From Nitrospira sp. (GTDB taxonomy: Bacteria; Nitrospirota; Nitrospiria; Nitrospirales; Nitrospiraceae): a stretch of DNA of 64,000 nucleotides. Positions 4,399-40,562 of this stretch are shown here, one piece after another (position 1 is the first letter of the stretch; every line of letters begins with the position of its first letter). The position numbers and the translations under genes are program-made. The DNA lies in the NCBI GenBank assembly GCA_031315995.1, contig JALDRG010000006.1, forward strand, positions 1 to 64,000. Direction: 5' to 3'. The notes under the pieces are model-generated. The model worked only from the letters and a program-made list of their open reading frames with translations. It had not been told where the DNA came from and did not search any database.

Positions 4399-4642
4399 GT
4401 CGACCGGCCGTGACTCGTGTCCACGCTCCCTGCCATCAGAATCCTCGTCCGCCACCGTGACCGACAGACTCTTTCGCTCTGTTTGCAACCGGTTCCGCAC
4501 AGTTGCCTCGCTTAACATTTCAGAGAAACAGCCGATACAGAATGCTGGAGAGCCCCGCTTCGTGCGGAGGCTTGTCGTACTTCGTCCGGTGCCTGTGTGA
4601 TGCGGAATAGTCCGCACAGCAGGGTGTGAGGGAGGCTTGCTG

Positions 4643-6286
4643 ATGGTGAAAAGCCGGATGGACCTGTCGTTCGCGTTGGATTCGGAGACCGCACATGCGA
4701 TTCTCAACAGCGCCTTGGACGCCCATGTTCTGATGGACCAAGCGGGGATGATCGTCGGATGGAACCCTCAGAGCGAACGAATCTTCGGTTGGACTGCGGA
4801 AGAAGTGTTGGGGCGACGACTTTCCGAGGTCATCATTCCGCCTGCATACCGGGAGGCCCACGAACGCGGGATTCAAATTTTCCGTGAGACGAGGAAGGGG
4901 ACCGTGTTGGGCAACCGAATCGAAATCGAGGGCTGGCATCGCGAGCAACGGCCCTTTCCCATCGAACTCACGGTCGTACGGGTCACGAAAAAAGACGGGT
5001 ACTTATTCAGCGCTTTCGTACGGGACATTACCGCACGAAAGCTGGCCGACCGCTTACTCAATGAAGCCAAGGATCGAGCCGAACAGGCTGCGAGGGACCG
5101 CGCGGGCATTCTAGCGGGCGTCGATGTTTTTTTTATTTATGTGAACGCCCAAGGGGTGGTGACGGAATGGACCGCCATGGCGGAACTCACGTTCGGTCTT
5201 ACCCGGAACGTGGTGCTTGATCGACGGCTGCGGGAGTTGCCCATTCTCTGGGATTGGGAGGCACTCGCCTCGATGATGCGGTCTCCCGGCGAACGGAAGA
5301 AAGTTCGATTGAGCCAGCAGGATGGGCCGGAGCGACTGATCGACCTCACGGTCACCCCGGTCGTGCAGGGGCAGGGAACCTGCTTCATCTTCATGGGCAA
5401 GGATATTACCGAACAGGTGAAACGCGATCACGAACTCGCGCAGTCACAGAAGCTGGAATCCATCGGCCAGTTAGCGGCGGGTATCGCGCATGAGATCAAC
5501 ACCCCGACACAGTTTGTCGGCGACAACACCATGTTCCTCAATGATTCGTTCATCGACCTCTTGCGGGTACTGCGGCAATATCAGGTGCTGCTTGCCGCAG
5601 TGCAGACGAACAGCTGCACCGCGGCGCTCATTGAGACCTGCGTGGCGGCGAACGAGAAGGCGGATCTCGACTACCTCATCGCGGAGATACCGCAGGCCAT
5701 CCTTCAGTCGCTCGATGGCATTTCGCGAGTAGGCGAAATCGTACAGGCCATGAAGGAATTTGCGCATCCGGGCACGAACGAAAAGACGGAAGTGAACCTC
5801 AATAACGCCATCATGAGCACCCTGACGGTGGCCAGTAACGAATGGAAATATGTCGCGGAGATGCAGACCCACCTGGACCCGTTGTTGCCTTCGGTTCCCT
5901 GTCTGATCGGAGAGTTCAACCAGGTCGTGCTGAACATCATCGTCAACGCCGCCCACGCCATTACCGATGTGGTTAAAAACAGCGGTGCCAAAGGAACCAT
6001 TACGGTCTCAACGGGGCGGGTAGGAGACTCGGCCGAGATTCGTATTTCCGATACCGGCAGCGGCATTCCCGAGTCCATTCGCTCGAAGATCTTCGATCCG
6101 TTTTTTACCACCAAGGACGTCGGCAAGGGCACCGGGCAGGGCTTGGCGATCGCTCGTTCCGTGGTGGTGGATAAACATGCGGGCAGCATTACAGTGGAAA
6201 GCGAGCCGGGACAGGGCACCACGTTCGTGATCCGTCTCCCCCTGGCAATCCCGTCGCGCGTAGCGTCCGATCAAGAGGCGGCATGA
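4643..6286 (+). CDS. PAS-PAS sensor histidine kinase
   Basis: A 547-residue soluble kinase with no membrane segment. Two PAS domains lie at about residues 18-135 and 158-260. The HisKA box contains the phosphorylated histidine (GIAHEINTP, about H283). A long helical insert precedes an HATPase_c domain at about 400-540 with its N box (NIIVNAAHAI), ISDTGSGIPES and GKGTGQGLAIARS. The ATG at 4643 is preferred over TTG at 4637 because the GGGAGG site is correctly spaced only for the ATG. The stop overlaps the ATG of the next gene by four bases (ATGA), which implies translational coupling to the REC-HDOD partner. Signals sensed by the PAS domains are unknown; no ligand or heme residue is obvious. 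Confidence 0.92.
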   Translation: MVKSRMDLSFALDSETAHAILNSALDAHVLMDQAGMIVGWNPQSERIFGWTAEEVLGRRLSEVIIPPAYREAHERGIQIFRETRKGTVLGNRIEIEGWHREQRPFPIELTVVRVTKKDGYLFSAFVRDITARKLADRLLNEAKDRAEQAARDRAGILAGVDVFFIYVNAQGVVTEWTAMAELTFGLTRNVVLDRRLRELPILWDWEALASMMRSPGERKKVRLSQQDGPERLIDLTVTPVVQGQGTCFIFMGKDITEQVKRDHELAQSQKLESIGQLAAGIAHEINTPTQFVGDNTMFLNDSFIDLLRVLRQYQVLLAAVQTNSCTAALIETCVAANEKADLDYLIAEIPQAILQSLDGISRVGEIVQAMKEFAHPGTNEKTEVNLNNAIMSTLTVASNEWKYVAEMQTHLDPLLPSVPCLIGEFNQVVLNIIVNAAHAITDVVKNSGAKGTITVSTGRVGDSAEIRISDTGSGIPESIRSKIFDPFFTTKDVGKGTGQGLAIARSVVVDKHAGSITVESEPGQGTTFVIRLPLAIPSRVASDQEAA

Positions 6287-7494
6287 CGCGGCTTCTCTTT
6301 GTCGATGATGAAGACAGGGTGTTGGACGGTTTGCAGCGTATGCTTCGCCCCATGCGGCACGAATGGGACATGCGGTTCGTCACCAGCGGGGGGGTAGCGT
6401 TGCAGAGCCTCGCCCAGACGCCGTTCGACGTGGTCGTGTCCGATATGCGGATGCCGGGAATGGATGGGGCGCAATTCTTGAAGGAAGTGCAGGCTCGTTT
6501 TCCGCAGGTGGTGCGCATGGTATTGTCCGGACATTCCGATCAAAACATGATCGAGCAATCCCGCAACGCAACCCATCTATACCTTGCCAAGCCCTGCCCG
6601 CCGGAGGTACTCAAAGCCACGATTACCCGTGTTTGCCATCTGAAGGCGTTGTTGGCCGACGAAGGACTGAGAGGCCTCGTGGCCGGCATGAGCAACGTGC
6701 CCACCTCGCCCCTGCTCTATCGCGAGCTCACGCGTGAGTTGGCGACAGCCAGTCCTTCGATGAAGACCATCACCGCCATCATTGCCAAAGATCTCGGGAT
6801 GACCGCCAAGATTCTTCAGATCGTCAATTCCACCTATGCCGACCGGTGCGATTTGGTGGCGACGGCGGCGCAGGCTACGAGTTTGCTGGGGCTCGATACG
6901 ATTTGCTCCATGGTACGCATAGAAGGGGGCTGTTCGGTCCTTACCGACCGCGCCGGTGCCTGTCTCAATTTCGAACGTCTGTGGGAGAAAAGCCTCGAAA
7001 CCGGCGCGCTGGCGCGGGTGATTGCGCAAGCGGAGCAGGCTTCGCCGCAAATGGTGGATCAAGCGGGAACCGCCGGACTGCTGCACGAAATCGGTGCGCT
7101 GATACTCGCCGGACATGCGACGGAACGCTTTACGGAGGCACGCTCCCTGTCGAAGGAACACAGGCTTCCTCTCTGGGTCGCAGAACAACAGGTATTCGGC
7201 AATACGCATGCCGAGGTGGGGGGCTATCTGCTTGGGTTGTGGGGACTGAGCGAGCCGATCGTGACCGCGGTGGCCTACCATCATGCGCCCAGCCGGTATG
7301 CGGAAAGCGGCTTCTGCCCCTTGACCGCCGTGCACGTGGCCGATTCTCTACAGAGAGAACTTGCTTCCACCGCGTACGTTGACGCGCCGGCGCAACTGGA
7401 TATGGCCTATCTGTCACGCCTCGGCCTTACCGAGCGGCTCCCCGCGTGGCGTGAGGCCGCGGCAGCTTGGCACAAGGAGCATGCGCATGAGTGA
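6283..7494 (+). CDS. Response regulator with HDOD output domain
   Basis: A 403-residue protein. The N-terminal receiver domain is complete: acidic pocket LFVDDED, phosphoacceptor Asp about residue 54 in VVSDMRMPG, conserved Ser in LSGHSD, and Lys in LAKPC. An HDOD domain follows at about residues 140-345 (KDLGMTAKILQIVNST, then LLHEIGALIL and VAYHHAPSRY). HDOD proteins are non-enzymatic HD-superfamily signalling modules found with two-component and c-di-GMP systems. It starts inside the stop of the kinase gene and overlaps the next start, so the three genes form a tight unit. It is the probable direct phosphorylation partner of that kinase. Confidence 0.92.
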   Translation: MTRLLFVDDEDRVLDGLQRMLRPMRHEWDMRFVTSGGVALQSLAQTPFDVVVSDMRMPGMDGAQFLKEVQARFPQVVRMVLSGHSDQNMIEQSRNATHLYLAKPCPPEVLKATITRVCHLKALLADEGLRGLVAGMSNVPTSPLLYRELTRELATASPSMKTITAIIAKDLGMTAKILQIVNSTYADRCDLVATAAQATSLLGLDTICSMVRIEGGCSVLTDRAGACLNFERLWEKSLETGALARVIAQAEQASPQMVDQAGTAGLLHEIGALILAGHATERFTEARSLSKEHRLPLWVAEQQVFGNTHAEVGGYLLGLWGLSEPIVTAVAYHHAPSRYAESGFCPLTAVHVADSLQRELASTAYVDAPAQLDMAYLSRLGLTERLPAWREAAAAWHKEHAHE

Positions 7495-8710
7495 CGCCAT
7501 TCTGTTCGTCGACGACGATGCGAACATATTGGAGGGTTTCAAACGTCAATTGCGGAAAGATTTTACGATCGAGACGGCCATCGGTCCGGAGGAAGGGCTG
7601 AAAGCCATCGAAGCGCGCGGCCCGTTTGCCGTGGTGGTCTCCGATCGCCAGATGCCTGGGATGGACGGCGTGGTGTTTTTGAGCACGGTGCGTGAGCGAT
7701 CCCGCGATGCGGTCAGAATTCTGTTGACCGGCAATGCGAATCTCGATGCAGCGGTTCAGGCGATCAATGAGGGGCAGATCTTCCGGTTCCTCACCAAGCC
7801 CTGCACCCATGAGGTGCTGGTCGGCACGCTCACCGCCGCTTTGCAACAACACAAACTCATCACGGCAGAGCGGGAGTTGCTGGAGCAGACGTTGGGTGGC
7901 AGCATTCGAGTGCTTTGCGACATGCTCTCCTTCGCGAATCCTGAGGCCTTCGGGCGCTCCTCCCGCATTACACGATCCGTCCGGGCCATGGCCGATCAAT
8001 TACAGCTCCCCGATCCTTGGCTGACGACCACCGCGGCCATGCTTTCACAAATCGGCTGCGTCATCCTGCCGGAGATCGTGCTGAACAAGGTGTATCACGG
8101 AGAAGAGCTGCGGGCGGAGGAATCGCAACTGTATAAGCAGCACCCTTTTATGGGCGCCGATATGGTCGCGGCGATTCCACGCATGAAACCCGTGGCGGAG
8201 ATTATCCGGTTTCAGGACAAGCCGTACCGTGCGGCGGAAGGCTCCAATGATCCGCATGCGGGGGAGCGGTTACCGATCGGAGCCCGCATCCTCAAGGTTG
8301 CACTGGACTTCGATGCGTTGCTCTCGACGGGCAAGTCGCAGGCGAATGCGATCACCATTCTGAAGGGGCGGAAGGATGTGTACGATCCAAAAGTCCTCGA
8401 AGCCCTGATCACCTCCGTGACCACCGGCAGGAAGCCGCAGGTGCTGTCGGTCGGTATCACCGGCCTGCTGGACGGCATGATCCTGGTCGAAGACATCCAC
8501 TCCGGCGCGGGCGAACTGCTGGCGTCGAAGGGGCAGGAGGTGACGGCGTCGATGCGGATGCGCCTCCTGGGTCTTGGCAGGTCCGCGGAGATCAAGGAAC
8601 CACTGATGGTGATTCATCCAAAGCAGACCGGTTTGCCGAATGGTGATCCGGGGGAACAGGCCGTGACTTCGTTCCTGCAAAACCTGAAGACATCGATCCA
8701 GGCTGCGTAA
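7487..8710 (+). CDS. Response regulator with degenerate HD-GYP-like domain
   Basis: A 407-residue protein. The ATG at 7487 has AAGGAG at ideal spacing; an ATG six bases earlier is too close to it. The receiver domain is intact (LFVDDDANIL, Asp53 in VVSDRQMPG, LLTGNA, FLTKPC). The C-terminal half follows the order of RpfG-type HD-GYP phosphodiesterases, but the metal site is gone. The first His is replaced in SSRITRSV, the HD pair reads SQIG in place of HDIG, the GYP motif is absent, and only the HP-GA block (QHPFMGADMV) and RILKVALDFDAL remain. It therefore probably binds partners and does not cleave c-di-GMP. It overlaps the HDOD gene by 8 bp. Confidence 0.88.
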   Translation: MSDAILFVDDDANILEGFKRQLRKDFTIETAIGPEEGLKAIEARGPFAVVVSDRQMPGMDGVVFLSTVRERSRDAVRILLTGNANLDAAVQAINEGQIFRFLTKPCTHEVLVGTLTAALQQHKLITAERELLEQTLGGSIRVLCDMLSFANPEAFGRSSRITRSVRAMADQLQLPDPWLTTTAAMLSQIGCVILPEIVLNKVYHGEELRAEESQLYKQHPFMGADMVAAIPRMKPVAEIIRFQDKPYRAAEGSNDPHAGERLPIGARILKVALDFDALLSTGKSQANAITILKGRKDVYDPKVLEALITSVTTGRKPQVLSVGITGLLDGMILVEDIHSGAGELLASKGQEVTASMRMRLLGLGRSAEIKEPLMVIHPKQTGLPNGDPGEQAVTSFLQNLKTSIQAA

Positions 8711-8813: not shown

Positions 8814-11489
8814 ATGGAGGGACTGGTTCGGATATGCGATACATTCTGCAGTTGCGTCCCGACATCAAGAGTCTCCATACTATTACCCATGCGAGATGCC
8901 CTTACGACCGAACTCGAAATGGGCGCAGGAGATCCTCGCAAGGCCCTCCTGCAAGTCGCCGAGGCGATTTCCATGCATGGGGACCTGGCGGCCCTGTTTA
9001 AGGACCTGGCGCAACGCCTGCCGGCCGTTGCGCCCTTCGATTTTATCGGTCTTGTGCTGCATGATCCTGCGAAGCAGGTGATGAAAGTGCATGTGCTCGA
9101 GACGGCCGAGGCTCAGGCTGCCACGAAGCGGCTCGATGACATGGAAATCCCGATCGAGGAGTCCGCCGGCGGCTGGGTCTGGTCGCAGCAGCAACCCTTG
9201 ATGATTCCCTCGCTCGCTGATGAAACGCGATACAAGCTCGGACTGGACGCGCTCAGGAGTCTCGGCGTGCAGTCCCTCTGCCTGTTTCCCCTCACGACGG
9301 CCATGCGGCGTCTCGGCGCGATCGGATTCGGCAGCCTGAGGACCTTCGCGTTCGGTGAGGCCGACATGGAGTTTCTCAACCAGGTCGCCAAGCTGGTCGC
9401 GGTGGCGGTGGACAATGTGCTGCATCATCAGGCCTTGCGTGATGAACGGGATCGATTGCAATTACTTTTGGATGTGACGGAATCGATCGCCTCACATCGT
9501 GATCTCACGCTGTTGTTGGAGGATTTGGCCCGGCGGCTGCCTCACGTCGTGCCGTTCGATTTCATCAACGCCGTGCTCCATGATCCTGCGAGCGACAAGA
9601 TGCGCTTGTGGCTGTTGGTGACATCGGAGCCATCCACGATCCGTCCAGGGCTCGAAACCCCCGTCGATGAATCGCCCGGAGGGTTGGTGTGGAAAACCCA
9701 GCAGCCGTTGACGGTTCCTGACGTGACGCAGGAACATCGATTCCCAGGACTGATGGCGCTGTTTCGCGAGAACGGAGTGCGATCGTTTTGTGTCGTGCCG
9801 CTCACGACCGCGCAGCGGCGGTTGGGCGCGATGGGATTCGGCAGCCTCCAGGCGCGGGTCTATGAGACATTTGAAATCGCGCTCATGCAACAGGTGGCCA
9901 AGCAGGTGGCGGTAGCCCTGGACAATGCGCTCAACGCCGAGACGGCCGTGACCTATCAGGCCCAGTTGACGCGGGAACGCGACCGCCAGCGCCTCTTGCT
10001 TGAAGTCAACAATGCGGTGGTATCCCATCTGGATCTGGATCAACTCTTTCCCGCGGTCAGCGCCTGCCTGCGCCGGGTGATTCAACACGATGGTTCCAGC
10101 CTGCTTCTCTGCAATGAGGAGATGGGGCAATGGCGCATCCACGTCCTGGATTTCGACCGAAACGAAAGCTTCATTGAGGAAGGGAAGATCGAGGAGCGCG
10201 CGCAATCGCCGTCCTGCCTGGCGATTAACACAGGCAAAACGGTGTTGTTCGGAGAGCAGGATCTTCTGGCCATGGCAGGCACCTCGCCCTGTGCGCAGGA
10301 TCTGCTTGATCGCGGGGTCAAGTCCTTCTGCTCCCTGCCGCTCTTGTCGCATAACCGCACGCTTGGTGCGTTGAACGTCGGGCGGCGAAGGGACGACGGC
10401 TTCGGCGAGGAAGACGTGCAACTCCTCGCCCAGGTCGCGCAGCAGGTCGCCATCGCGGTGGAAAACGCACTCGCGTTTCGGGAGATTGCCGCTCTCAAGG
10501 ATAAGCTGGCCAAAGAGAAGGTCTATCTTGAGGAAGAAATTCAGACGGCCTACAACTTCGAGGAGATCGTCGGGGACAGCCGCACGCTCAAGCAGGTGCT
10601 CAAACAGGTCCAGACCGTGGCTGCCACCGATTCCACCGTGCTGATTCTCGGTGAAACGGGCAGCGGAAAAGAGTTGATCGCGCGCGCCCTGCACAATCTC
10701 AGTGACCGGCGGGAGCGGACCTTCGTGAAGCTGAATTGCGCCGCGATTCCCACGGGCTTGCTGGAGAGCGAACTGTTCGGTCATGAAAAGGGCGCGTTCA
10801 CCGGGGCGATCGCGACGAAGATCGGCCGCTTCGAATCAGCCGACCGCGGGACGATCTTTCTCGATGAGGTGGGAGAGATTCCGTTGGAACTTCAGGTCAA
10901 GCTGCTGCGTGTGTTGCAGGAGCAGGAGTTCGAGCGGTTGGGAAGCACCAGAACCATTCGTGTCAACGTCCGGGTGATCGCCGCGACCAATCGGGATCTC
11001 GGCCACATGGTGGAAGAACAGAAGTTTCGCAGCGACCTCTACTATCGGCTGAAGGTATTTCCGATTACCCTGCCGCCCTTGCGTGAACGGCCAGAGGATG
11101 TGCCCCTGTTGGTCCGGCACTTTGTGCAGAAGTTCGCTGCGCGCATGAAGAAGCGGATCGAAACCGTTCCTGCCGAGGCGATGAAGGCTCTTCAGGCCTA
11201 CCCTTGGCCCGGCAATGTGCGAGAGTTGGAGAATTTCATCGAACGCTCGGTGATCTTGTCCTCCGGCTCGAACCTATTCGTGTCGGCGGCGGAACTGAAG
11301 CGTCCCGCTCCGATGGGGAATGGGTCGGCTGCGACATTGGAAGAGGCCGAGCGCGATCACATTCTGAAAGTCCTTCGGGACACGAACTGGGTCATCGGCG
11401 GCGATGCCGGGGCGGCAGCCCGGTTAGGGATGAAGCGAACTACCCTCCAGTCCAAAATGCACAAACTTGGCATCACGCGCCCACGGTAG
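8814..11489 (+). CDS. Triple-GAF sigma-54-dependent transcriptional activator
   Basis: An 891-residue FhlA-like enhancer-binding protein. Three GAF domains lie at about residues 40-195, 220-375 and 400-555; GAF1 and GAF2 are close paralogues ([11 protein letters not shown] and [11 protein letters not shown]). The AAA+ domain spans about 590-825, with Walker A GETGSGKE, the sigma-54 contact loop GAFTGA and Walker [14 protein letters not shown] Fis-type helix-turn-helix closes the protein ([20 protein letters not shown]). There is no receiver domain, so it should respond to ligands at the GAFs and not to phosphorylation. The start is uncertain: ATG 8814 or ATG 8889, neither with a good ribosome site. 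A sigma-54-type promoter lies about 200 bp downstream, before the RND operon, making that operon its likely target. Confidence 0.93.
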
Positions 11490-11559
11490 CGCCGATCGTT
11501 CGACAGCTGCCACAGAGCTTCATGCCGCGTGATCAGGTCGGATGCGCCGCTGCCGCTAT

Positions 11560-11575
11560 TTCGGCAGATGCCGAA
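11560..11575. promoter_or_regulatory. Inverted repeat, candidate enhancer site
   Basis: A perfect inverted repeat, TTCGGCA-GA-TGCCGAA, lies about 117 bp upstream of the -24 box of the sigma-54-type promoter at 11692. A half-site-like ATCGGCA follows about 32 bp later (11592-11598). This distance suits an upstream activator site for the enhancer-binding protein encoded just before it. The 2-nt spacer is too short for a stable terminator loop. Confidence 0.5.
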
Positions 11576-11691
11576 GGAAAGGCAGGCGGGCATCGGCACC
11601 GCTTCTCGTCAGGTCGTATTTCATGATACAAGCCAAAACTTTTCTTTCGATGGGAGACGCACTTAGGATGGAATGTGCTCGACGTCTAGGC

Positions 11692-11707
11692 TGGAACGGT
11701 CGTTGCT
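11692..11707 (+). promoter_or_regulatory. Sigma-54 (-24/-12) promoter
   Basis: TGGAACG, 4 nt, TTGCT: GG and GC are separated by exactly 10 nt, and the boxes match the consensus TGGCACG-N4-TTGC with one mismatch. Transcription would start near 11718, about 70 nt before the adaptor gene of the RND operon. Confidence 0.7.
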
Positions 11708-11785
11708 TTGTATCGGTGAAAGCATTCTTGCGATGGAGCCGGAAAGTTTCCGCTTCATCTGCCATCTGCCGGGAGGGTAACTGTC

Positions 11786-12913
11786 ATGGATCGTCGTAGT
11801 TGGATCGGGTCTTCGCTGCTGCTCCTGGCCGTGGCCGCAACGGGCGTGGGTCTGGCTGCATGGAAGTACGGGAGCATCCAGGCCAGTGATGCCGCTTCGG
11901 CGAATCAGCCGGAGCCGATGGAAACGGTGTCGGTCGACGTCGCCAGGGCAGTCGAGGATCATCAGACGGCCACCTCGATCGGCACGGTGCTGGCGCTGCG
12001 CTCGATCACGCTCCGCAACGAACTGGCCGGAACCGTCAGTCAAGTCCGATTCGTGCCCGGCCAGATCGTTGCGGCCGGGGCCGTGCTCATTGCACTCGAC
12101 GTGTCGGTCGAAGAAGCGGACCTACGCGCCCAACAGGCCCAGGCCGTCTTGGCTCGGACGGTGTTGGATCGCCGGCGCGCGTTGACTCAAGACCAGGCCG
12201 CGGCGCAGGAGGAAGTCGATCGCGCCCGCGCAGACCTTGATGTCGCGCAGGCCCAGATTGCCCGCACGAAGGCGCTGATTGCCCGCAAGACGATCCGTGC
12301 GCCGTTCCGTGCCCGTGTCGGCTTGGCCGACGTGCATCCCGGACAGTATTTGAACGAAGGTACTCAGCTGACGACGCTGCAAGGGGTCGATGAGGCGGTT
12401 CATGTGGACTTCGCGGTCCCGCAGCATGTCGTGCTCGGGCTGCGGCAAGGCTCGGCCGTCGAGGTGTTCACCGGTACCGCTTCTTCCCCCCTGGTCGCCA
12501 AGATTGTGGCGCTCGATGCCCGTATCGACCCCACCACGCGGAATACCATGGTGCGTGCCAGGATCGAGCATTCCGCCACGATGCCCGCTCCCGGTGCCGC
12601 CGTGCGGATCAGGGTTCCGGTGGGAGTGGCGCGCCAGGCCGTGGCGATTCCAGTGAATGCCTTGCGCAAGGGGCCGGGAGGCGATCAGGTGTTTGTCATC
12701 GAGTCGGACCAGGAGAACAAGCCGCGAGCGCATGTGCGCCGAGTCGAAAGCGGCGCGATGATCGGCGACGACATCCTCATCCATAGCGGCTTGACCGCCG
12801 GCGAACGAGTGGCATCGTCGGGGTCGTTCAAGTTGCGCGATGGTGTGCTCGTGGCCGTCGCCGCCCAGCCGGACCGTACATCGGGACCGGACCGTCTTCT
12901 CAGCCAACAGTAA
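11786..12913 (+). CDS. RND efflux periplasmic adaptor (HlyD/MFP family)
   Basis: A 375-residue membrane-fusion protein that bridges an RND permease and an outer-membrane channel. One N-terminal membrane anchor lies at about residues 5-28 (SSLLLLAVAATGVGLAAWKY), with no lipobox. The order is standard: a barrel/lipoyl half (LRNELAGTVSQVRFVPGQ), a helical hairpin at about 100-165 rich in Ala and Gln, the second lipoyl half (ARKTIRAPFRARVGLADVHP), a beta-barrel and a membrane-proximal domain. A GGGAGG ribosome site precedes the ATG. It is the first gene of a four-gene operon behind the sigma-54-type promoter. It belongs to a different adaptor subgroup from the lipoprotein adaptor at 51114. Confidence 0.93.
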   Translation: MDRRSWIGSSLLLLAVAATGVGLAAWKYGSIQASDAASANQPEPMETVSVDVARAVEDHQTATSIGTVLALRSITLRNELAGTVSQVRFVPGQIVAAGAVLIALDVSVEEADLRAQQAQAVLARTVLDRRRALTQDQAAAQEEVDRARADLDVAQAQIARTKALIARKTIRAPFRARVGLADVHPGQYLNEGTQLTTLQGVDEAVHVDFAVPQHVVLGLRQGSAVEVFTGTASSPLVAKIVALDARIDPTTRNTMVRARIEHSATMPAPGAAVRIRVPVGVARQAVAIPVNALRKGPGGDQVFVIESDQENKPRAHVRRVESGAMIGDDILIHSGLTAGERVASSGSFKLRDGVLVAVAAQPDRTSGPDRLLSQQ

Positions 12914-12924
12914 GGCCAGGGAAC

Positions 12925-15900
12925 ATGCCCATGCGTTCATTTACCGACATCTTCATCAAGCATCCCGTACTCGCCGTGGTCGTGAATCTCGTGATCGTCC
13001 TCGTGGGTTGGCGGGCACTGACGACGTTGCCGGTGCAGCAGTACCCAAAGATCGAGAGTTCCTCGATCATCATCACCACGGTCTATTACGGAGCCGGAGC
13101 CGAGACCGTACGAGGCTTTCTGACCACACCGATCGAACGGGTGGTGTCGGCGATCAGCGGCGTCGACTATTTGGAATCCACCAGCCGCGCCGGCATCAGT
13201 ACCGTGACGGTGCATCTCAAGCTGAATCACAGTAGTACGGCGGCGCTCGCTGAAGTAACGGCGCGTCTTCAGCAGGTTCGGTCGGAGCTGCCGGCCGAAG
13301 CTGAACCGCCGGCGGTGGAGGTGCAGCGCGCCGATCGCCCTTACGCCTCGTTTTATCTCAGCTTCACCTCGCCGGAGCGCACGGTCCCGGCTCTGACAGA
13401 CTGGCTGCTGCGAGCCCTTCAGCCTCAATTCGCCACGCTGACCGGTGTCCAGCGGGTGACGATTGAAGGCGGGCGGCAGATCGCCATGCGTGTATGGATC
13501 GATCCCGATCGGCTCGCGGCCTATAACCTGTCTCCCGGAGACGTGCAGGCCGCCTTGCGACGGAACAACTATCTGGCCGCCGTCGGTCGGACGAAGGGGA
13601 ACCTCGTGCAGGTCAACCTGCTCGCGAATACGGACCTGCGCTCCGTCAGCGAGTTTCAGGAACTCATCGTCGCCGACCGCGGCGGCGCCATTGTGCGGCT
13701 GAGGGATGTGGCGAGAGTAGAAAACGGGGCCGAAGAGGCTGAGATGGTGGCGAAGTACAACCGCCTGGAGGGGGTGTATCTCGGCGTCTGGCCCCTGGTC
13801 GGCTCGAACGAGATCGAGGTGGCGCATCGGTTGCGGGAAGAGATGGATCGTATTCGGCCGACTCTGCCGAAAGACATCGACATGCAGCTGGTCTGGGACG
13901 GCACGATGTTCATGGAGAGCGCGCTGAAGGAGATCACCAAGACGCTGGGCGAGACGATCCTGATCGTGGCGACGGTGGTCTTTCTGTTCATGGGATCGGT
14001 CAGGACGGCGCTGGTCCCGCTGGTGGCCATGCCCGTGTCGCTGATCGGGGCCGCCATCTTCATGTTTGCGTTCGGTTTCAGTCTGAACCTCCTGACGATT
14101 CTGGCGATCGTGTTGTCGGTGGGGTTGGTGGTGGATGACGCGATCGTCGTCGTGGAGAACGTCGAACGGCACGTTCGCGAAGGGAAGTCGAGAGTGCAGG
14201 CGGCATTGATCGGTTCGCGCGAGTTGGTCGGTCCTATCATTGCCATGACTATTACCTTGGCCGCGGTCTATGCCCCGATCGGTTTTCAGGGAGGTCTGAC
14301 CGGCTCGCTGTTTCTTGAATTTGCCATCACCCTGGCCGCCGCCGTGGTGTTGTCCGGCGTGGTGGCGGTCACCCTGTCGCCGGTCATGAGCTCGCGTTTT
14401 GTCCACCCGGAAGGCAAGGAGGGCAAGCTGACCCGGCTGGTCAACCGTGGGTTCGACGTGATCCGAGTGGGCTACGGGAGGTTACTCGACGGCGCGTTGG
14501 AAATGCGCTGGGCGATCGTGGTGGCGTCGCTGTTGATTATGATGGCGGCTGTCCCGCTCTATCTGTTCTCCCGGCAGGAACTGGCCCCTGTGGAAGACCA
14601 GAGCCATATCAGCCTCTTTCTGGAGGCGTCGCCGGACTCGACGGTCGCGGCGACGAACCGTGATTCGTTGAAGGTAGTCGATGCGATCCGGTCGTTTCCG
14701 GAGGCCCGGTTCATGTGGTCGCTGACTTCGTCATGGGGAGGGTTCGGCGGACTGGTGGCCAAAGATTGGCGGGAACGAACACGCTCGACCGAGCTGATGT
14801 ATGGCGAAGTGTTCGGAGTGGTGTCGCAGATCCCCGGGTTGCGGGTGTTCCCGCGCCTCGATCCGCCGTTGCCGTCGCCGGGCCAATACGACGTTGAACT
14901 GATCCTGGGCAACGATGTCCCCCCCGAGCAGATGCTCGAGATGACCGGCGCGGTCCTGGGTGCTGGTTGGCAGAGCGGCAAGTTCCTGTATGTCGACACC
15001 GACCTGAAAATCGATTTGCCTGAAGCGCGCGTCGTGCTCGATCGCGAGCGACTCGCCGACCTGGGCTTCGATCTGGCGGGGGTGGGCCAGGAACTCGGGA
15101 CGTTGCTCGGCGGGGCGTATGTGAACCGCTTTAATTTTTATGACCGCAGTTACAAGGTCATCCCTCAAATCGGCGACAAAGATCGCGCGACGCTGGGCCC
15201 GCTCCTCGACCTCAAGATCAAAACGCCCGGCGGCCAACTCGTGCCGGTTTCGACGTTTACCCACATTGAAACGAGTACCGCGCCGCGGACGCTGAATCGC
15301 TTTCAACAGCGCAATGCGGTGCGGATCTTCGGCGGCGTGAAGCCCGGTGTCACCAAGGAGGAGGGGTTGCGTGTCCTGGAAACCGCCGCGTCGGCGGCCG
15401 TCGGTCCGCGGGTGGCGATCGATTACGCGGGAGAATCGCGCCAGATTCGCCACGAGGGGTCGGCCTTGACCGTGACGCTCGGCTTCGCCGTGGTGCTCAT
15501 TTATCTCGTGCTCGCGGCCCAGTTCAAGAGTTTTCGTGATCCGTTGATCGTCCTGCTGGGTTCCGTGCCGCTGGCGATTTCCGGTGCGTTGGTCTTCAGT
15601 TTCCTCGGCCTGACGACCATCAACATTTACTCGCAAGTCGGGCTGATTACGCTGGTCGGACTGATCGCGAAGAACGGCATCCTGATCGTGGAGTTCGCGA
15701 ATACGCTGCAGGTGCGAGGGCTGTCGAAGACGGCTGCGTTGCGCGAAGCCTCCATGACGCGGCTGCGGCCGGTGTTGATGACCTCGGCGGCCACGGTCTT
15801 CGGACACCTTCCGCTGGTGCTCGTCTCAGGCCCTGGCGCCGCAGCCCGCAATAGCATCGGTATGGTGTTGGTCACAGGGATGACGGTGGGCACGTGCTTT

Positions 15901-16017
15901 ACGTTGTTCGTCGTGCCGGTGTTTTACTCGCTGATCGCCGCCCAGCATCAGCCTGCAGCCGAAGTGGAAGCGGCCGAAGAGGGGGAGTTGCAGGAGTTGG
16001 TCGGCGCGAAGGGATGA
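12925..16017 (+). CDS. RND efflux permease (HAE1/AcrB superfamily)
   Basis: A 1030-residue inner-membrane proton-driven pump. The N-terminal segment FIKHPVLAVVVNLVIVLVGW is the first transmembrane helix, followed by a large periplasmic loop, a block of six helices from about residue 335, a second loop and a final helix block. The proton-relay aspartates are present in helix 4 (VGLVVDDAIVVVEN), and the matching lysine in helix 10 is in GLIAKNGILIVEF. Length and motifs indicate multidrug/hydrophobe (HAE1) pumps and not metal pumps; the substrate cannot be read from sequence. The gap to the adaptor gene is 11 bp. The alternative ATG at 12931 changes only two residues. Confidence 0.94.
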   Translation: MPMRSFTDIFIKHPVLAVVVNLVIVLVGWRALTTLPVQQYPKIESSSIIITTVYYGAGAETVRGFLTTPIERVVSAISGVDYLESTSRAGISTVTVHLKLNHSSTAALAEVTARLQQVRSELPAEAEPPAVEVQRADRPYASFYLSFTSPERTVPALTDWLLRALQPQFATLTGVQRVTIEGGRQIAMRVWIDPDRLAAYNLSPGDVQAALRRNNYLAAVGRTKGNLVQVNLLANTDLRSVSEFQELIVADRGGAIVRLRDVARVENGAEEAEMVAKYNRLEGVYLGVWPLVGSNEIEVAHRLREEMDRIRPTLPKDIDMQLVWDGTMFMESALKEITKTLGETILIVATVVFLFMGSVRTALVPLVAMPVSLIGAAIFMFAFGFSLNLLTILAIVLSVGLVVDDAIVVVENVERHVREGKSRVQAALIGSRELVGPIIAMTITLAAVYAPIGFQGGLTGSLFLEFAITLAAAVVLSGVVAVTLSPVMSSRFVHPEGKEGKLTRLVNRGFDVIRVGYGRLLDGALEMRWAIVVASLLIMMAAVPLYLFSRQELAPVEDQSHISLFLEASPDSTVAATNRDSLKVVDAIRSFPEARFMWSLTSSWGGFGGLVAKDWRERTRSTELMYGEVFGVVSQIPGLRVFPRLDPPLPSPGQYDVELILGNDVPPEQMLEMTGAVLGAGWQSGKFLYVDTDLKIDLPEARVVLDRERLADLGFDLAGVGQELGTLLGGAYVNRFNFYDRSYKVIPQIGDKDRATLGPLLDLKIKTPGGQLVPVSTFTHIETSTAPRTLNRFQQRNAVRIFGGVKPGVTKEEGLRVLETAASAAVGPRVAIDYAGESRQIRHEGSALTVTLGFAVVLIYLVLAAQFKSFRDPLIVLLGSVPLAISGALVFSFLGLTTINIYSQVGLITLVGLIAKNGILIVEFANTLQVRGLSKTAALREASMTRLRPVLMTSAATVFGHLPLVLVSGPGAAARNSIGMVLVTGMTVGTCFTLFVVPVFYSLIAAQHQPAAEVEAAEEGELQELVGAKG

Positions 16018-16057
16018 CCTGATCCGACTTGTGGAACGCGACAGGAGGACTTGCACG

Positions 16058-16369
16058 ATGCTGAAAATTACATCCGAGCGGACTTCCGACTCCGCGCGTC
16101 TGACCTTGGAAGGGAGTCTGAGCGGGCCCTGGGTGACCGAGCTGGAACGGGTGTGGCAGCAGGTCAAACAGGCCGGCACGTGTGCGCCTGTAGTGGAACT
16201 GACGGGGATCACGTTCATCGCGGAGGACGGCAGGGCTTTGTTGACCAGCATGTGGCGAGAGGGGGCCGTCTTGATCGCGAACGGATGCTGCACCAGGCAT
16301 ATCGTGGAACAAATCACCGGGACGGAGGCCGGTCCGTCTGCGCCATCAGTTCGCTGCGAGGCAAACTAG
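16058..16369 (+). CDS. STAS-domain protein in RND operon
   Basis: A 103-residue single-domain protein similar in pattern to anti-sigma-factor antagonists (STAS fold): RLTLEGSLSGPWVTELERVW, then VVELTGITFIAEDGRALLTS. In phospho-regulated STAS proteins the loop after the central strand carries Ser or Thr; here it reads AEDG, so switching by a kinase of the SpoIIAB type is doubtful. The ATG at 16058 is chosen because AGGAGG ends 9 nt upstream; the longer GTG start at 16031 has no site. It lies 40 bp after the permease and 12 bp before the channel gene, so it is co-transcribed. Its role in efflux is unknown; it may be an adaptor or sensor. Confidence 0.8.
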   Translation: MLKITSERTSDSARLTLEGSLSGPWVTELERVWQQVKQAGTCAPVVELTGITFIAEDGRALLTSMWREGAVLIANGCCTRHIVEQITGTEAGPSAPSVRCEAN

Positions 16370-16381
16370 GATGAGAACATC

Positions 16382-17827
16382 ATGCGCCGAGTCGCTCTCC
16401 TCATAGGATCTCTCTTCATAGCCGCCTGTGCGGTCGGACCGGACTACTCCCGTCCGGACCTTGCGGTACCGGATCGGTTCCGCATGGGTGCGACGCAGCA
16501 GGAAGCCGAGTCCTTTGCCAATCTGCCGTGGTGGGATTTATTGCAAGACGAGGAACTCCGTCGTCTCATTCGAGTGGCGCTGGCCGAGAATAAAGATCTG
16601 AAGCGGGCGGTCGCATCGGTCGAGGAGTTTCAGGCGCGGATGTTCATCGCACAAATGGACTTTGCGCCTAAGGCCGATGTCACCTCCAATGCGCCGTTGT
16701 TCGGCCGCAAGGCGAACTTTCTATTTCCCGGGTTTCCCAATCCGTTCAACTATTACCTCCAAGGCAATCTCTCCTGGGAACTTGATCTCTGGGGACGGAT
16801 CCGCCGGTCGAACGAAGCGGCGAGAGGCGATCTCCTGTCGCGGGAGGAGGCCCGACGCGCCGTCGTGCTCCAGTTGGTGAGCGGCGTCGCAGAGGCGTAT
16901 TTCGACCTGCTGCAGTTCGATATGCAACTGGCCGTGGCGCAGAGAACGCTGAAATCCTGGGACGAATCGGTCAGGATTGCCGAGGCACGGCTGCGGGAAG
17001 GCATGATCTCAAAAATCGATGCGGACCAGTTTGCGGCTGAACGAGCCAATGCCGCGGCGCGGGCGGCGGAGTTGACCCGGCAGATGGTACAGAAGGAAAA
17101 CCAGATCAGTGTCCTGCTGGGACGTTCGCCAGGCCGGATACAGCGAGGCCGTTCCCTGACCGATCAGGTAATGCCGCCGGAGGTGCCGGCCGGTCTTCCT
17201 TCGGAATTGCTGCAGCGCCGACCGGACCTCGTGCAGGCGGAACAGGAACTGGCGGCGGCCACGGCAAGAATCGGAGTGGCGAAGGCGGACCGGTTTCCGA
17301 AGCTCAGCATTACAGGGATCTTGGGCGTCGCCAGTCCGCAGTTGTCACGGTTGGTTGCGGATGAGACGGCGTTCGGCGTCGCAGGTCCTAGTCTTGCCGG
17401 TCCGCTCTTGAACGCCCAGATCCTCGGGTTTCAGCAAGAGGCAACCGAAGCGCAGAGCCGTGCGGCGCTGGCGCAGTATGAACAGGCCCTGCTGGTGGCG
17501 TTTCGTGAAGTGGAGGATGCGCTGGTTGCGGTGCGAACGGTGCGGGAGCAGCGGGGCGCGCAGGCCGAGCAGGTCGAGTCATTGCGCTCGGCCTTGCGGC
17601 TGGCCAACCTGCGTTACAAAGGAGGATTGGCCAACTACCTCGATGTCCTCGTCGCGCAACGCAATCTGTTCGAAGCGGAACTCGCGCTGACCAGCACCCA
17701 CCGGTTACAGCTCGTTTCCGTCGTGCAATTGTACAAGGCGCTAGGGGGAGGATGGTCGCCGCTAGATACGGCCCAGCAGCAGCCGGGAAAAATTCCAGTC
17801 GAGACGGGGCAGGCGGAACGTGGCTGA
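16382..17827 (+). CDS. NodT-type outer-membrane efflux lipoprotein
   Basis: A 481-residue TolC-superfamily channel. The N terminus is a lipoprotein signal (SLFIAACAVGPDYSRPD) with Cys about residue 18 and the typical VGPDY start of the NodT/OprM class. Two OEP repeats follow, with long helical stretches rich in Ala, Glu and Arg, and the conserved beta-barrel segments NPFNYYLQGNLSWELDLWG and GITGILGVASPQ-like. It forms the exit duct of the upstream pump. It closely resembles the channel gene at 55479 over its whole length, whereas the pump subunits of the two operons are clearly different. Confidence 0.94.
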   Translation: MRRVALLIGSLFIAACAVGPDYSRPDLAVPDRFRMGATQQEAESFANLPWWDLLQDEELRRLIRVALAENKDLKRAVASVEEFQARMFIAQMDFAPKADVTSNAPLFGRKANFLFPGFPNPFNYYLQGNLSWELDLWGRIRRSNEAARGDLLSREEARRAVVLQLVSGVAEAYFDLLQFDMQLAVAQRTLKSWDESVRIAEARLREGMISKIDADQFAAERANAAARAAELTRQMVQKENQISVLLGRSPGRIQRGRSLTDQVMPPEVPAGLPSELLQRRPDLVQAEQELAAATARIGVAKADRFPKLSITGILGVASPQLSRLVADETAFGVAGPSLAGPLLNAQILGFQQEATEAQSRAALAQYEQALLVAFREVEDALVAVRTVREQRGAQAEQVESLRSALRLANLRYKGGLANYLDVLVAQRNLFEAELALTSTHRLQLVSVVQLYKALGGGWSPLDTAQQQPGKIPVETGQAERG

Positions 17828-18216: not shown

Positions 18217-19404
18217 ATGAACTTTGCCGTTCGCATCCTGTGTGCTGGTCCTGTCCTCGTGGGGCTCTTTCTCACGGGCTGCCTTTCGCCGATTGCTCTG
18301 CATCAAGCCGTGCTCTCCTATGACGAGACCGTGACGCAGGTGAGCAGCGAGCAGTTGCTCCTGAACATCGTGCGCGCCCGGTATAATCGTCCGGTGCATT
18401 TCACCACAGTCTCGAGCGTGGCCGCGACGTTCGATTTCCGCATGACGGCCGGCATCCGCCCCCCTGAGGGAGACGCGCGCGGCCTCGTCGCTCCCATATT
18501 CAGCACAACCGTGGCCGAAAATCCGACCATCACCATCGTCCCCATGGACGGGGCGGAATTCGAGCAACGCCTGTTGACGCCATTGGAGGAAGAGCGATTT
18601 CTGTCGATTCTGGAACTCGGAAGCGATCTTGGCATGGCCCTCAGGATGATGGGTTCTGCCATGCGAATGGAGACCGAGACCGGACTCGTGGTGCTGGAAA
18701 ATGAACCCGGGACTCCTGCCGAGTACGAAGAATACCGACGGCGATGTCTCCACCTCAGCGTCCTGCACCGCAATCACCAGCTTTTCATCGAGCCCGTGAT
18801 GGTCGGAAAGCTCTGGGAAGGCAGCATGGAGCGGGGGCCGACGCCGGAGGATATCCTGCAAGCCTTGGAGAAGGGCCATCGCTGGTATAAGACCGGCGAC
18901 CATCGGTATGCGCTCAGTAAGTCGCGCTTGCTGCTCTCGAACTATGACGCGACGCGGCGATCTGAACGGCGCGGGGATTTTGTTCAGGATCTGCAGGATT
19001 GGCCCCCGAATGAAATTCTCGTCGATATCCGGCCGGACTACCCGGGCGGGGAGTTTCCGATCCATGGCCGTATCAGCCTGCGAAGCTTCAATTCCATCCT
19101 GCAGTTTTTGGCGCGTGGCATCAGCGACCGTCCTGAATATGCCGTGCAGCAGGACCCTCGAACGGGCCCCGTCGAGGTTAATCCCGCACAGACGCTCCAG
19201 ATCCTGGAGACCGGCACGGTGCCGCCGGATGCCGCTCTCTTCGTGAAGTACCACGACAGTTTTTACTCGGTCGAGGAAGCGCGTTACGCCAGAGGAGAAG
19301 GCGCGAATTGGAACCTCAAGGCGTTCAACATGTTGTATCAGCTCTACCAGATGACGAAAAAACCGGTCTCGGCTCCCGTGCCCGGCATCGCGATCGCCAA
19401 GTAA
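18217..19404 (+). CDS. Conserved lipoprotein of unknown function
   Basis: A 395-residue protein from ATG 18217. The signal and lipobox are clear (AGPVLVGLFLTGCLSPI, Cys about residue 22). An in-frame ATG at 18178 would give a longer n-region and cannot be excluded. The mature part begins with LHQAVLSYDETVTQVSSEQL and LLNIVRARYNRPVHF, a conserved opening I recall from uncharacterised envelope lipoproteins, often near transport genes. A C-terminal part with GEFPIHGRISLRSFNSILQF looks alpha/beta. No catalytic motif is visible. It follows the first RND operon on the same strand after 389 bp, so it may be separate. Confidence 0.8.
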   Translation: MNFAVRILCAGPVLVGLFLTGCLSPIALHQAVLSYDETVTQVSSEQLLLNIVRARYNRPVHFTTVSSVAATFDFRMTAGIRPPEGDARGLVAPIFSTTVAENPTITIVPMDGAEFEQRLLTPLEEERFLSILELGSDLGMALRMMGSAMRMETETGLVVLENEPGTPAEYEEYRRRCLHLSVLHRNHQLFIEPVMVGKLWEGSMERGPTPEDILQALEKGHRWYKTGDHRYALSKSRLLLSNYDATRRSERRGDFVQDLQDWPPNEILVDIRPDYPGGEFPIHGRISLRSFNSILQFLARGISDRPEYAVQQDPRTGPVEVNPAQTLQILETGTVPPDAALFVKYHDSFYSVEEARYARGEGANWNLKAFNMLYQLYQMTKKPVSAPVPGIAIAK

Positions 19405-19463
19405 CGGCCTCCGAAAAAGGTCACGATCTCTCCGAATCGCCGTCCCATGAGGCTGTGCCGCCG

Positions 19464-20717
19464 ATGAGTGAGGAGCGGACCCCAGGCATACGCGAGGTGG
19501 TAGACCGCATCTACCGCTCGGAATCCCGCCAGGTGCTCGCCACGTTGATCCGTCTGCTCGGAGATTTTGACGCCGCTGAAGAAGCCTTGCATGAGGCCTT
19601 CACTGTGGCGGTCGAGCAATGGGATCGGGATGGCGTGCCGTCCAATCCGCGGGCCTGGCTCGTCTCGACCGGCCGGTTCAAGGCCATCGATGGAATGCGT
19701 CGGCGCGCCCGGTTCGACGCCTCGCTCACGGAACTCGCCACGCACTTGGAACTCAGGACCAGTGATCCCGAGGACTGGAGCGACGAGGCGGTGGAGGATG
19801 ACCGGCTCCGGCTGATGTTCACCTGTTGCCATCCGGCCTTGTCGCCTGAGGCGCAAGTGGCGATGACGCTGCGCGAAGTCTGCGGACTCACGACGGACGA
19901 GATCGCGCGCGCATTTCTCACCAAGCCCACGACCATCGCTCAACGGATCGTGCGCGCCAAGGCCAAGATCCGCGATGCGCACATTCCGTATGACGTGCCC
20001 TCGCAGGCTGACTTGCCGGACCGGCTGGATACCGTACTCCAAGTCGTCTATCTGGTGTTCAATGAGGGCTACAGCGCGTCAGGCGGGACGTCGCTCACCA
20101 GACACGATTTCTCCGGCGAAGCGATTCGTTTGGGGCGGCTGCTGATCCAATTGCTTCCGGAGCCTGAAGCGACGGGACTGCTTGCGCTCATGTTGCTGCA
20201 CGACTCGCGGCGCGCGGCGCGCACATCGCCGACGGGCGATCTGATTCTTCTGGAGGATCAAGACCGCAGGGTGTGGAATCACGATCAGATTACGGAAGGG
20301 GTGTCGCTGGTGGCGCGGGCGTTGTCATCGGGCCGGATCGGTCCCTACACGGTCCAAGCGGCGATCGCCGCAGTACACGCCCAGGCACCTCATGCCGCTG
20401 CCACGAACTGGACTCAGATCGTCGCGCTCTACGACGTGTTGATGCGGTCCGATCCCTCGCCGGTGGTCGAGCTGAATCGAGCGGTCGCAGTCGCGATGCG
20501 TGATGGTCCAGTTGAAGGACTGGCCCTCGTCGATGCGATTCTTTTGCGCGGCGAACTCGTGACCTATCACTTGGCGCATGCGGCGCGGGCGGACCTCTGC
20601 CGTCGACTGGGGCGAACGGCAGAGGCCCGCAGTTCCTACGAACGGGCCCTGAGTCTCACGCAACTGGAACCGGAACGGAGGTTTCTGCAGCGTCGGCTGA
20701 GAGAATCGGAGGACTGA
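19464..20717 (+). CDS. ECF42-like RNA polymerase sigma factor with C-terminal extension
   Basis: A 417-residue sigma factor. Sigma-2 lies at about residues 10-80 (SRQVLATLIRLLGDFDAAEE, PRAWLVSTGRFKAID). Sigma-4 is at about 110-165 (LSPEAQVAMTLREVCGLTTD, AFLTKPTTIAQRIVRAKAKI). A C-terminal extension of about 230 residues has TPR-like helices, NEGYSASGG, LMLLHDSRRAAR, and a final RLGRTAEARSSYERAL. This sigma-2/sigma-4/TPR layout with a DUF6596-type middle identifies ECF42. No anti-sigma gene is adjacent; in this group the extension is known to be needed for activity. ECF42 genes are usually linked to DGPF (YCII) proteins, and three such genes plus matching promoters occur 15-27 kb downstream. 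The ATG at 19464 is preferred to a start inside the preceding gene. Confidence 0.93.
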   Translation: MSEERTPGIREVVDRIYRSESRQVLATLIRLLGDFDAAEEALHEAFTVAVEQWDRDGVPSNPRAWLVSTGRFKAIDGMRRRARFDASLTELATHLELRTSDPEDWSDEAVEDDRLRLMFTCCHPALSPEAQVAMTLREVCGLTTDEIARAFLTKPTTIAQRIVRAKAKIRDAHIPYDVPSQADLPDRLDTVLQVVYLVFNEGYSASGGTSLTRHDFSGEAIRLGRLLIQLLPEPEATGLLALMLLHDSRRAARTSPTGDLILLEDQDRRVWNHDQITEGVSLVARALSSGRIGPYTVQAAIAAVHAQAPHAAATNWTQIVALYDVLMRSDPSPVVELNRAVAVAMRDGPVEGLALVDAILLRGELVTYHLAHAARADLCRRLGRTAEARSSYERALSLTQLEPERRFLQRRLRESED

Positions 20718-39155: not shown

Positions 39156-39566
39156 AAGGGTAGAGTGCGGTCGATCGATGAAGGTCGCCCTGCCATCTCT
39201 CATCATCGTTTTCCTTGCAGGCATGGAACTTCAGGCAAGATTCGGCCTCGCCGTCTCTCAGGGGATGAGGGACAATCTCCCGCAGCCGCGGCTTGTGCCG
39301 ACGCGTCGGCAATCGAATTTTTCTCGTCCGGGTTCGTCAAGGATGCGCCGATATCTCGGCGCATGCCGAGGGGCAGTCACGTCGGTTTCGGCACCAGACC
39401 CATCACATTTCGATATGTGCTGTGAGGTCTCACGATTTGCGTTGATTGAACGCGAGCTTTTCCGCCATCGGAATGGCTGGTCAGATGGAATAGTTTTTGC
39501 TGATCCTGAAGTTTAGATGATGTCAATAAATCCCCTACGGTCTCGACAATGTCCGGCGGACAGGTG
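39156..39566 (+). other. Palindrome-rich stretch behind P2, possible structured transcript
   Basis: Four palindromes follow one another: AGCCGCGGCT (39284-39293), TGCCGACGCGTCGGCA (39296-39311), a 9-bp stem ATGCGCCGA/TCGGCGCAT with loop TATC (39343-39364), and an overlapping TCGGC-GCAT-GCCGA (39356-39369). A 112-residue frame (39178-39516) has no ribosome site and an Arg/Ser-rich composition. A non-coding RNA, or a decayed gene that kept its promoter, are the two readings. Confidence 0.4.
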
Positions 39567-40562
39567 ATGAACGATATTCTGCAAATCCTGACTCAGCACG
39601 GGACAATGGTTCTGGTTGCGGTCGTCTTTATCGAGCAAATAGGGATGCCATTGCCCGCGATCCCTATCCTAGTTGCGGCTGGGGTGCTTGCGGGAACGGG
39701 ACACATGAATATCTGGATTGCCGTCGTTGCTACGGTGATGGCCGCACTCGGCGCAGATTGGATCTGGTATGAGCTGGGCCGGCGGCGTGGACGACTGGTA
39801 CTGGATTGGGTCTGCCGTATCGCGCTCGAGCCGGACTCTTGCGTGCGCAAGACCGAGAATTTCTTCATCGAACATGGCCCACACTCGCTGGTGGCGGCCA
39901 AATTCATTCCTGGGTTGAGCACAATCGCGCCGCCGCTCGCCGGCATCGTAGGACTGAGTCTTCCCATTTTTCTACTGTATGACGGCCTTGGCGCGATAGT
40001 CTGGGCCGGATCGGGGTTGGGCATCGGCTATGCGCTCAGCGATCAGATTGAGCAGGCCATCACCTATGCAAAGCAAATCGCTCCGGCAGCGATAGGCGCT
40101 GCAGTCGGCGCGCTGATCGGATACGTTTCCTACAAAGCGCTGCTCCGTCGTCGGCAGCTTCGTCGGGTGCCTCGCATCACGGTCGAACAGCTGACAGAAC
40201 GACTCAAGGCGGCTGAGCCGCCCCTCCTCATCGACCTACGTCCTCGAATAGGTGCCGAGGCGGAGCCTGGTCTCCCGAATGCATTAAGGATGTCGCTGGA
40301 GGATTTGGTTCTTCGACACGGGGAACTTTCCCGTCATCGTGACCTAGTCTTGTACTGCGGCTGCCCGGAAGACATCGCGAGCGCCCAAGGGACGCTTCTT
40401 CTATACAAGCAGGGTTTCACACGAGTCTGGCCCCTCGCCGGAGGAATCAAGGCCTGGAACGCCCGCGCCGTAAAGCACCAAGATGCGACAACTATCCTGG
40501 AAGCGCAGAGGAGTACGCCGGAACTTATCCATGATGGGGCGCAGATCGCGCTTATACGGTAA
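39567..40562 (+). CDS. DedA-family membrane protein fused to a rhodanese domain
   Basis: A 331-residue protein. Residues about 1-200 are a DedA/SNARE-associated domain with the re-entrant segments typical of DedA lipid transporters (FIEQIGMPLPAIPILVAAG, AKFIPGLSTIAPPLAG). Residues about 215-305 are a rhodanese domain with LLIDLRPR and an active-site loop LYCGCPEDIASAQ that keeps the cysteine. A 25-residue tail follows. The fusion is found in several phyla. The ATG at 39567 has GGACAGG upstream; ATG 39549 is a six-residue-longer alternative. It may link lipid flipping to thiol chemistry; the substrate is unknown. Confidence 0.9.
   Translation: MNDILQILTQHGTMVLVAVVFIEQIGMPLPAIPILVAAGVLAGTGHMNIWIAVVATVMAALGADWIWYELGRRRGRLVLDWVCRIALEPDSCVRKTENFFIEHGPHSLVAAKFIPGLSTIAPPLAGIVGLSLPIFLLYDGLGAIVWAGSGLGIGYALSDQIEQAITYAKQIAPAAIGAAVGALIGYVSYKALLRRRQLRRVPRITVEQLTERLKAAEPPLLIDLRPRIGAEAEPGLPNALRMSLEDLVLRHGELSRHRDLVLYCGCPEDIASAQGTLLLYKQGFTRVWPLAGGIKAWNARAVKHQDATTILEAQRSTPELIHDGAQIALIR

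Follow-up and report, generated by a model that had tools for sequence, protein, structure and literature searches.

A GAF-domain activator predicted to control an RND efflux operon and a VTT-rhodanese gene through sigma-54 in Nitrospira

Comparison of related genomes indicates that a tripartite RND efflux operon of Nitrospira is very probably controlled, through sigma-54, by the GAF-domain activator encoded next to it, and that a gene for a VTT-rhodanese membrane protein is a predicted second target. The features on which this reading of the sequence is based lie in a stretch of 64,000 nucleotides (G000:C34:1-64000, hereafter the window) and are listed in Table 1. The nearest named record is L145, Nitrospira sp. 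RBC048, the adaptor of which is 98% identical to that in the window. Sigma-54 control of the pump by a GAF activator had been proposed in the initial annotation, and the conserved sites, their narrow spacing, the co-occurrence of sites and activator and the predicted second target now give this proposal strong comparative support.

Table 1. Coordinates of the genes and predicted regulatory elements in the window
Feature	Position	Strand	Remarks
Activator	8814..11489	+	three GAF, sigma-54 AAA+ with GAFTGA, Fis-type HTH, without receiver; FhlA-like (Pfam, NCBIfam)
Predicted activator site UAS1	11551..11566	+	TGCCGCTATTTCGGCA; 141 bp 5' of sigma-54 site; 91% mean identity
Palindrome TTCGGCA-GA-TGCCGAA	11560..11575	.	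UAS1/UAS2 junction, no separate unit
Predicted activator site UAS2	11569..11584	+	TGCCGAAGGAAAGGCA; 123 bp 5' of sigma-54 site; 81% mean identity
Third half-site TCGGCA	11593..11598	+	+24 from UAS2; aligned in most relatives
Conserved TTAG	11663..11666	+	between binding sites and promoter, conserved alignment columns
Predicted sigma-54 -24/-12 element	11692..11707	+	TGGAACGGTCGTTGCT; 11/12 consensus positions; 80% mean identity
RND periplasmic adaptor (MFP)	11786..12913	+	TIGR01730 above cut-off
RND permease, AcrB/MexB-like	12925..16017	+	ACR_tran 790.8 bits; AcrB-like PDB matches; DD + K proton-relay motifs
Small STAS-looking protein	16031..16369	+	open reading frame between permease and outer-membrane genes
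Outer-membrane efflux protein	16382..17827	+	TIGR01845 above cut-off
Second module, UAS1 equivalent	39346..39361	+	CGCCGATATCTCGGCG; 140 bp 5' of its sigma-54 site
Second module, UAS2 equivalent	39364..39379	+	TGCCGAGGGGCAGTCA; 122 bp 5' of its sigma-54 site
Second module, half-site TCGGCA	39388-39393		after UAS2 equivalent
Second module, sigma-54 element	39486..39501	+	TGGAATAGTTTTTGCT
VTT (DedA-like)-rhodanese membrane protein	39549..40562	+	predicted second target; Pfam VTT_dom, Rhodanese

The gene preceding the pump had been described as a sigma-54 activator with a GAFTGA motif and a Fis-type end. The Pfam profile search bore this out, showing three GAF stretches, Sigma54_activat (246 bits) and, at the C-terminus, HTH_8 (29.1 bits against a cut-off of 22), and detected no receiver domain in the protein. 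Walker A, GAFTGA and Walker B are found at residues 613, 660 and 679, respectively. The AAA+ domain with these motifs, the C-terminal Fis-type HTH and the presence of rpoN in the same genome (one match, PF04552, E 2.6e-56) are the features of a bEBP. The annotation had also stressed three GAF domains without a receiver. This architecture is real in the window, but three GAF domains are not an essential trait, since several orthologs, including that of N. moscoviensis (718 aa), are of two-GAF size. GAF1 and GAF2 (within 8814-10500) are 51% identical, so that one was probably duplicated from the other. Given this identity and the orthologs of about 700 aa, the third GAF domain seems to have been gained recently or lost repeatedly. 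In the AlphaFold model the GAF domains are good and the AAA+ region is poor; the PDB matches of the model are generic tandem GAF proteins (such as phosphodiesterases and phytochromes) and give no pointer to a ligand. Upstream of the activator on the same strand (4637-8710), Pfam showed a PAS-domain histidine kinase as well as two proteins in which a receiver is combined with HDOD and HD domains.

The arrangement was compared with known systems. In NtrC/NifA-type systems, a -24/-12 promoter is preceded, at about 100-140 bp, by dyads resembling TGC-N10-GCA. The present case differs from that type in the lack of a receiver, in the sequence of the sites and in the presence of two abutting sites 18 bp apart. 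FhlA, the activator of formate hydrogenlyase in enterobacteria, likewise combines GAF domains, an AAA+ domain with GAFTGA and a Fis-type HTH without a receiver, and it is the best NCBIfam match of the activator; the nearest named matches among plasmid genes are also fhlA (44-47% identical). The score of 637.3 bits is, however, below the equivalog cut-off of 830. Moreover, the clade of the window has three GAF domains, and the target is a pump and not formate metabolism as in FhlA. NorR, which acts on norVW, is also a GAF-controlled one-component activator; its AAA+ domain is restrained by the GAF domain until the ligand binds, and its ATPase activity depends on three enhancer sites upstream (PMC2941729), comparable to the two sites and half-site here. 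The NorR model, however, matched the activator mainly over the AAA+ part, with 382.5 bits against an equivalog cut-off of 476, and the target differs from norVW.

The genes for the adaptor, the AcrB-type permease and the outer-membrane channel stand together (TIGR01730, ACR_tran, TIGR01845), as in a tripartite RND system of the HAE1 type; this class is assigned from the genes. The small frame at 16031-16369 matched no Pfam family, and a protein resembling it comes after the module in L268. Further downstream, the frame at 19308-20717 resembles, by eye, a sigma factor of the ECF type that carries a long extension at its C-terminus. The activator and adaptor genes are on one strand and separated by only 296 bp, and no credible terminator was found in this gap, where the sole terminator-like match, a near-chance one, overlaps the sigma-54 site. 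These facts would allow most pump transcription to come from a sigma-70 promoter or from read-through of the activator gene, with the sigma-54 site minor or fossil. The stretch 11450-11850, however, showed no sigma-70-like site in the forward direction, and the pumps of relatives that lie 1-7 kb from the activator still keep a module of their own. Transcription of this kind is therefore very improbable as the main route, and we favor a dedicated sigma-54 promoter for the pump.

The sequence TGGAACG-N4-TTGCT at 11692, with its GG-N10-GC spacing, had been reported correctly in both letters and position. It lies 79 bp upstream of the first gene of the pump. Its GG (11693-11694) and GC (11705-11706) fall within CTGGAACGGTCGTTGCT at 11691-11707, which has one mismatch to YTGGCACGN4TTGCW, in keeping with the sigma-54 consensus TGGCACG-N4-TTGCW. 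The inverted repeat TTCGGCA-GA-TGCCGAA was also found where it had been placed. As the binding unit, however, it gave way to two abutting 16-bp sites, since its two arms are the right half of one TGC-N10-GCA site and the left half of the site that follows. A free-standing palindromic operator was considered and rejected, because one-site promoters, for instance those adjoining the activator of other species, retain the 16-bp unit without the junction. The motif TGCCGNNATNTCGGCA has a single exact match in the genome, which is UAS1. UAS2 is found at a similar spacing across most relatives, and the half-site TCGGCA also occurs at the activator-adjoining promoter in other relatives. About 26 bp upstream of the sigma-54 element, TTAG is kept in most aligned relatives and does not match the activator site or the promoter consensus; it is possibly the site of an architectural protein.

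The sigma-54 motif alone, with at most one mismatch, occurs at 37 sites genome-wide, compared with 41 in the reversed control. It was accordingly rejected as sole evidence, and it leaves room for the idea that all of these matches are chance occurrences in a GC-rich genome. Conservation was therefore taken as the basis for regarding the module as real. Of the 29 genomes of the genus, 22 gave a match to the adaptor, and 21 cassettes, the window included, were compared. In 18 of the 21, a sigma-54 site lies within 300 bp upstream of the adaptor, with a TGCCGANATNTCGGCA-like site before it; in the other 3 the module is missing before the pump. Dinucleotide-shuffled sequence gave no module in 2000 rounds. 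The conservation of both sites before orthologous operons, which the annotation had put forward as a check, is thus borne out. Over 25 aligned pump-upstream regions, the mean identity to the window is 80-91% at UAS1, UAS2 and the sigma-54 element (Table 1), compared with 44% elsewhere. UAS1 usually starts 140-143 bp upstream of the promoter element, with UAS2 18 bp later; shorter distances are seen in L090 (120) and in N. moscoviensis (129). In the cultured strain N. moscoviensis NSP M-1 (L154) the module is present and its first site is perfect (14/14). Together with the genome-wide controls given below, the shuffles and the conservation of the alignment columns leave chance with next to no probability, and we regard that reading, on these comparative data, as already refuted.

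Most relatives carry an independent module copy that either adjoins the activator or lies just past an FAD oxidoreductase gene downstream of the activator; this copy often reads into a gene for a VTT (DedA-like)-rhodanese protein and then a TerB-domain gene. Beside the activator of the window the VTT-rhodanese and TerB genes are absent, and no TerB gene was found in the genome of the window or in G003. The second module was found by prediction: a homolog of the VTT-rhodanese protein was searched for first, and then the DNA upstream of it. The protein found in this way is 62% identical to that of the G019 gene behind an activator-adjoining module, and the spacings of its module are nearly equal to those at the pump. 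The strict two-part pattern has exactly two matches in the whole genome, one at the pump and one at this gene. The pump is therefore predicted to be one of at least two targets. The second module is itself preceded, at a distance of 50 bp, by a further perfect palindrome, TGCCGACGCGTCGGCA (39296-39311).

The specificity of the pattern was analyzed across genomes. In the 29 genomes of the genus, the strict pattern gave 30 matches against 3 in the control, a count that is partly circular because the pattern was drawn from sequences of the genus. By their coordinates, all of these matches lie at the pump, the activator, the VTT-rhodanese gene or paralogous activators. In 197 Nitrospirales genomes, 93 matches were found against 5 in the reversed control, tandem sites being counted twice in a few places; outside the genus the numbers were 64 and 2. 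The counts outside the genus and the second target in the window provide the non-circular evidence. Of 1232 reading frames in named genomes, 26 have the module upstream, and almost all of these 26 are pump adaptor or DedA-like genes. At 11 places outside the genus or in single-locus records, which were read further, the next gene encodes an RND adaptor in one case, a VTT-rhodanese protein in another, and various small or other proteins in the rest; a matching activator C-terminus lies at most 162 bp upstream in 4 of the 11.

Co-occurrence was counted at the 79 named adaptor loci that have enough upstream DNA: 18 carry both activator and module, 6 only the activator, 4 only the module (no activator in the locus DNA covered) and 51 neither. 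The Fisher test for this co-occurrence gave p = 2.4e-9, a value that overstates independence because the loci are related. A TetR gene lies directly upstream of the pump at 9 loci, none of which has the module (p = 0.056 for this contrast alone). The orthologous pump stands right behind the TetR gene, without a sigma-54 module, in L098, L099, L152, L155, L202 and L210. Activation in the window would thus stand in place of a presumed repression, and the TetR loci without the module suggest that one type of regulator was replaced by another.

It is worth considering that the sites and promoter may be real while one or more paralogous activators drive the pump, the neighboring activator sharing or lacking the main role. 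The genome has two such paralogs, 56% and 45% identical. Near-identical sites lie beside the genes of paralogs, which makes cross-regulation conceivable: TGCCTAGATCTCGGCA lies just 3' of the C10 paralog gene with a sigma-54-like TGGCATCGCCCCTGCT 115 bp further, and the equivalent site of the G022 paralog is a 14/14 match. Strict matches directly 3' of paralogous activator genes were located at G022:C11 and G001:C1. The neighboring activator, however, is kept upstream of the pump, 0.3 to 7 kb away and on the same strand, in all 21 cassettes of the genus, and the presence of the module follows that of this activator. It is therefore improbable that a paralog takes the main role, and control by the neighboring activator is preferred. 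At the paralog with 45% identity (G000:C10:13405-14961, L105), a sigma-54-like site is followed by a small gene and one for an FtsX/MacB-like permease.

The following mechanism is proposed, its order (site binding, GAF ligand, ring release, sigma-54 remodeling and transcription) being drawn by analogy with NorR. A one-component, FhlA-like enhancer-binding activator would bind the two abutting TGC-N10-GCA sites and the half-site, about 100-140 bp upstream of the -24/-12 promoter, through its Fis-type HTH. Binding of a small molecule to the GAF domains would release the AAA+ ring, which would then touch sigma-54 through GAFTGA and open the promoter. The MFP-RND-OMP pump transcript would start at about 11718, and the same activator would drive the second promoter, that of the VTT-rhodanese membrane protein gene. 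We infer the binding of the activator to the 16-bp sites, the transcript start and the gating by a ligand. From the GAF domains and the absence of a receiver, a chemical inducer is a fair inference. The set of targets, namely the pump and the DedA-like and TerB proteins, would fit envelope or toxic-compound stress.

The mechanism is standard, and the regulon appears to be undescribed. Searched by term, the open-licence sigma-54 papers on the regulons of Geobacter (PMC2725144), Desulfovibrio (PMC4641369) and Clostridiales (PMC6615313), on E. coli (PMC8743547) and on many phyla (PMC12316311) report no RND pump under a GAF-type sigma-54 activator; this absence is weak evidence of novelty because only open-licence papers were covered. 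For Nitrospira, one paper places an RND system close to a urea transporter, together with a sigma-54 regulator, and gives no promoter (PMC12516955). Within the published open-licence literature, we found no Nitrospira transcriptome paper that reports induction of the pump.

Nitrospira is central to nitrification and wastewater treatment, and the comparison of 197 genomes provides a concrete and testable candidate stress regulon with exact predicted sites for these nitrite-oxidizing bacteria. Since the module occurs in the cultured strain NSP M-1, the question of the regulon is open to experiment. A wider picture may be offered tentatively, and we think it somewhat less probable than the contrary: a Nitrospirales-wide regulon in which GAF-only sigma-54 activators sharing one DNA code control RND pumps, DedA-like VTT-rhodanese and TerB membrane-stress genes, the control of the pump alternating with TetR by lineage and the inducer being a stress molecule specific to nitrite oxidizers. 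The orthologous pumps, some of which stand behind a TetR gene and others behind a sigma-54 module, would represent a natural case of regulatory replacement.
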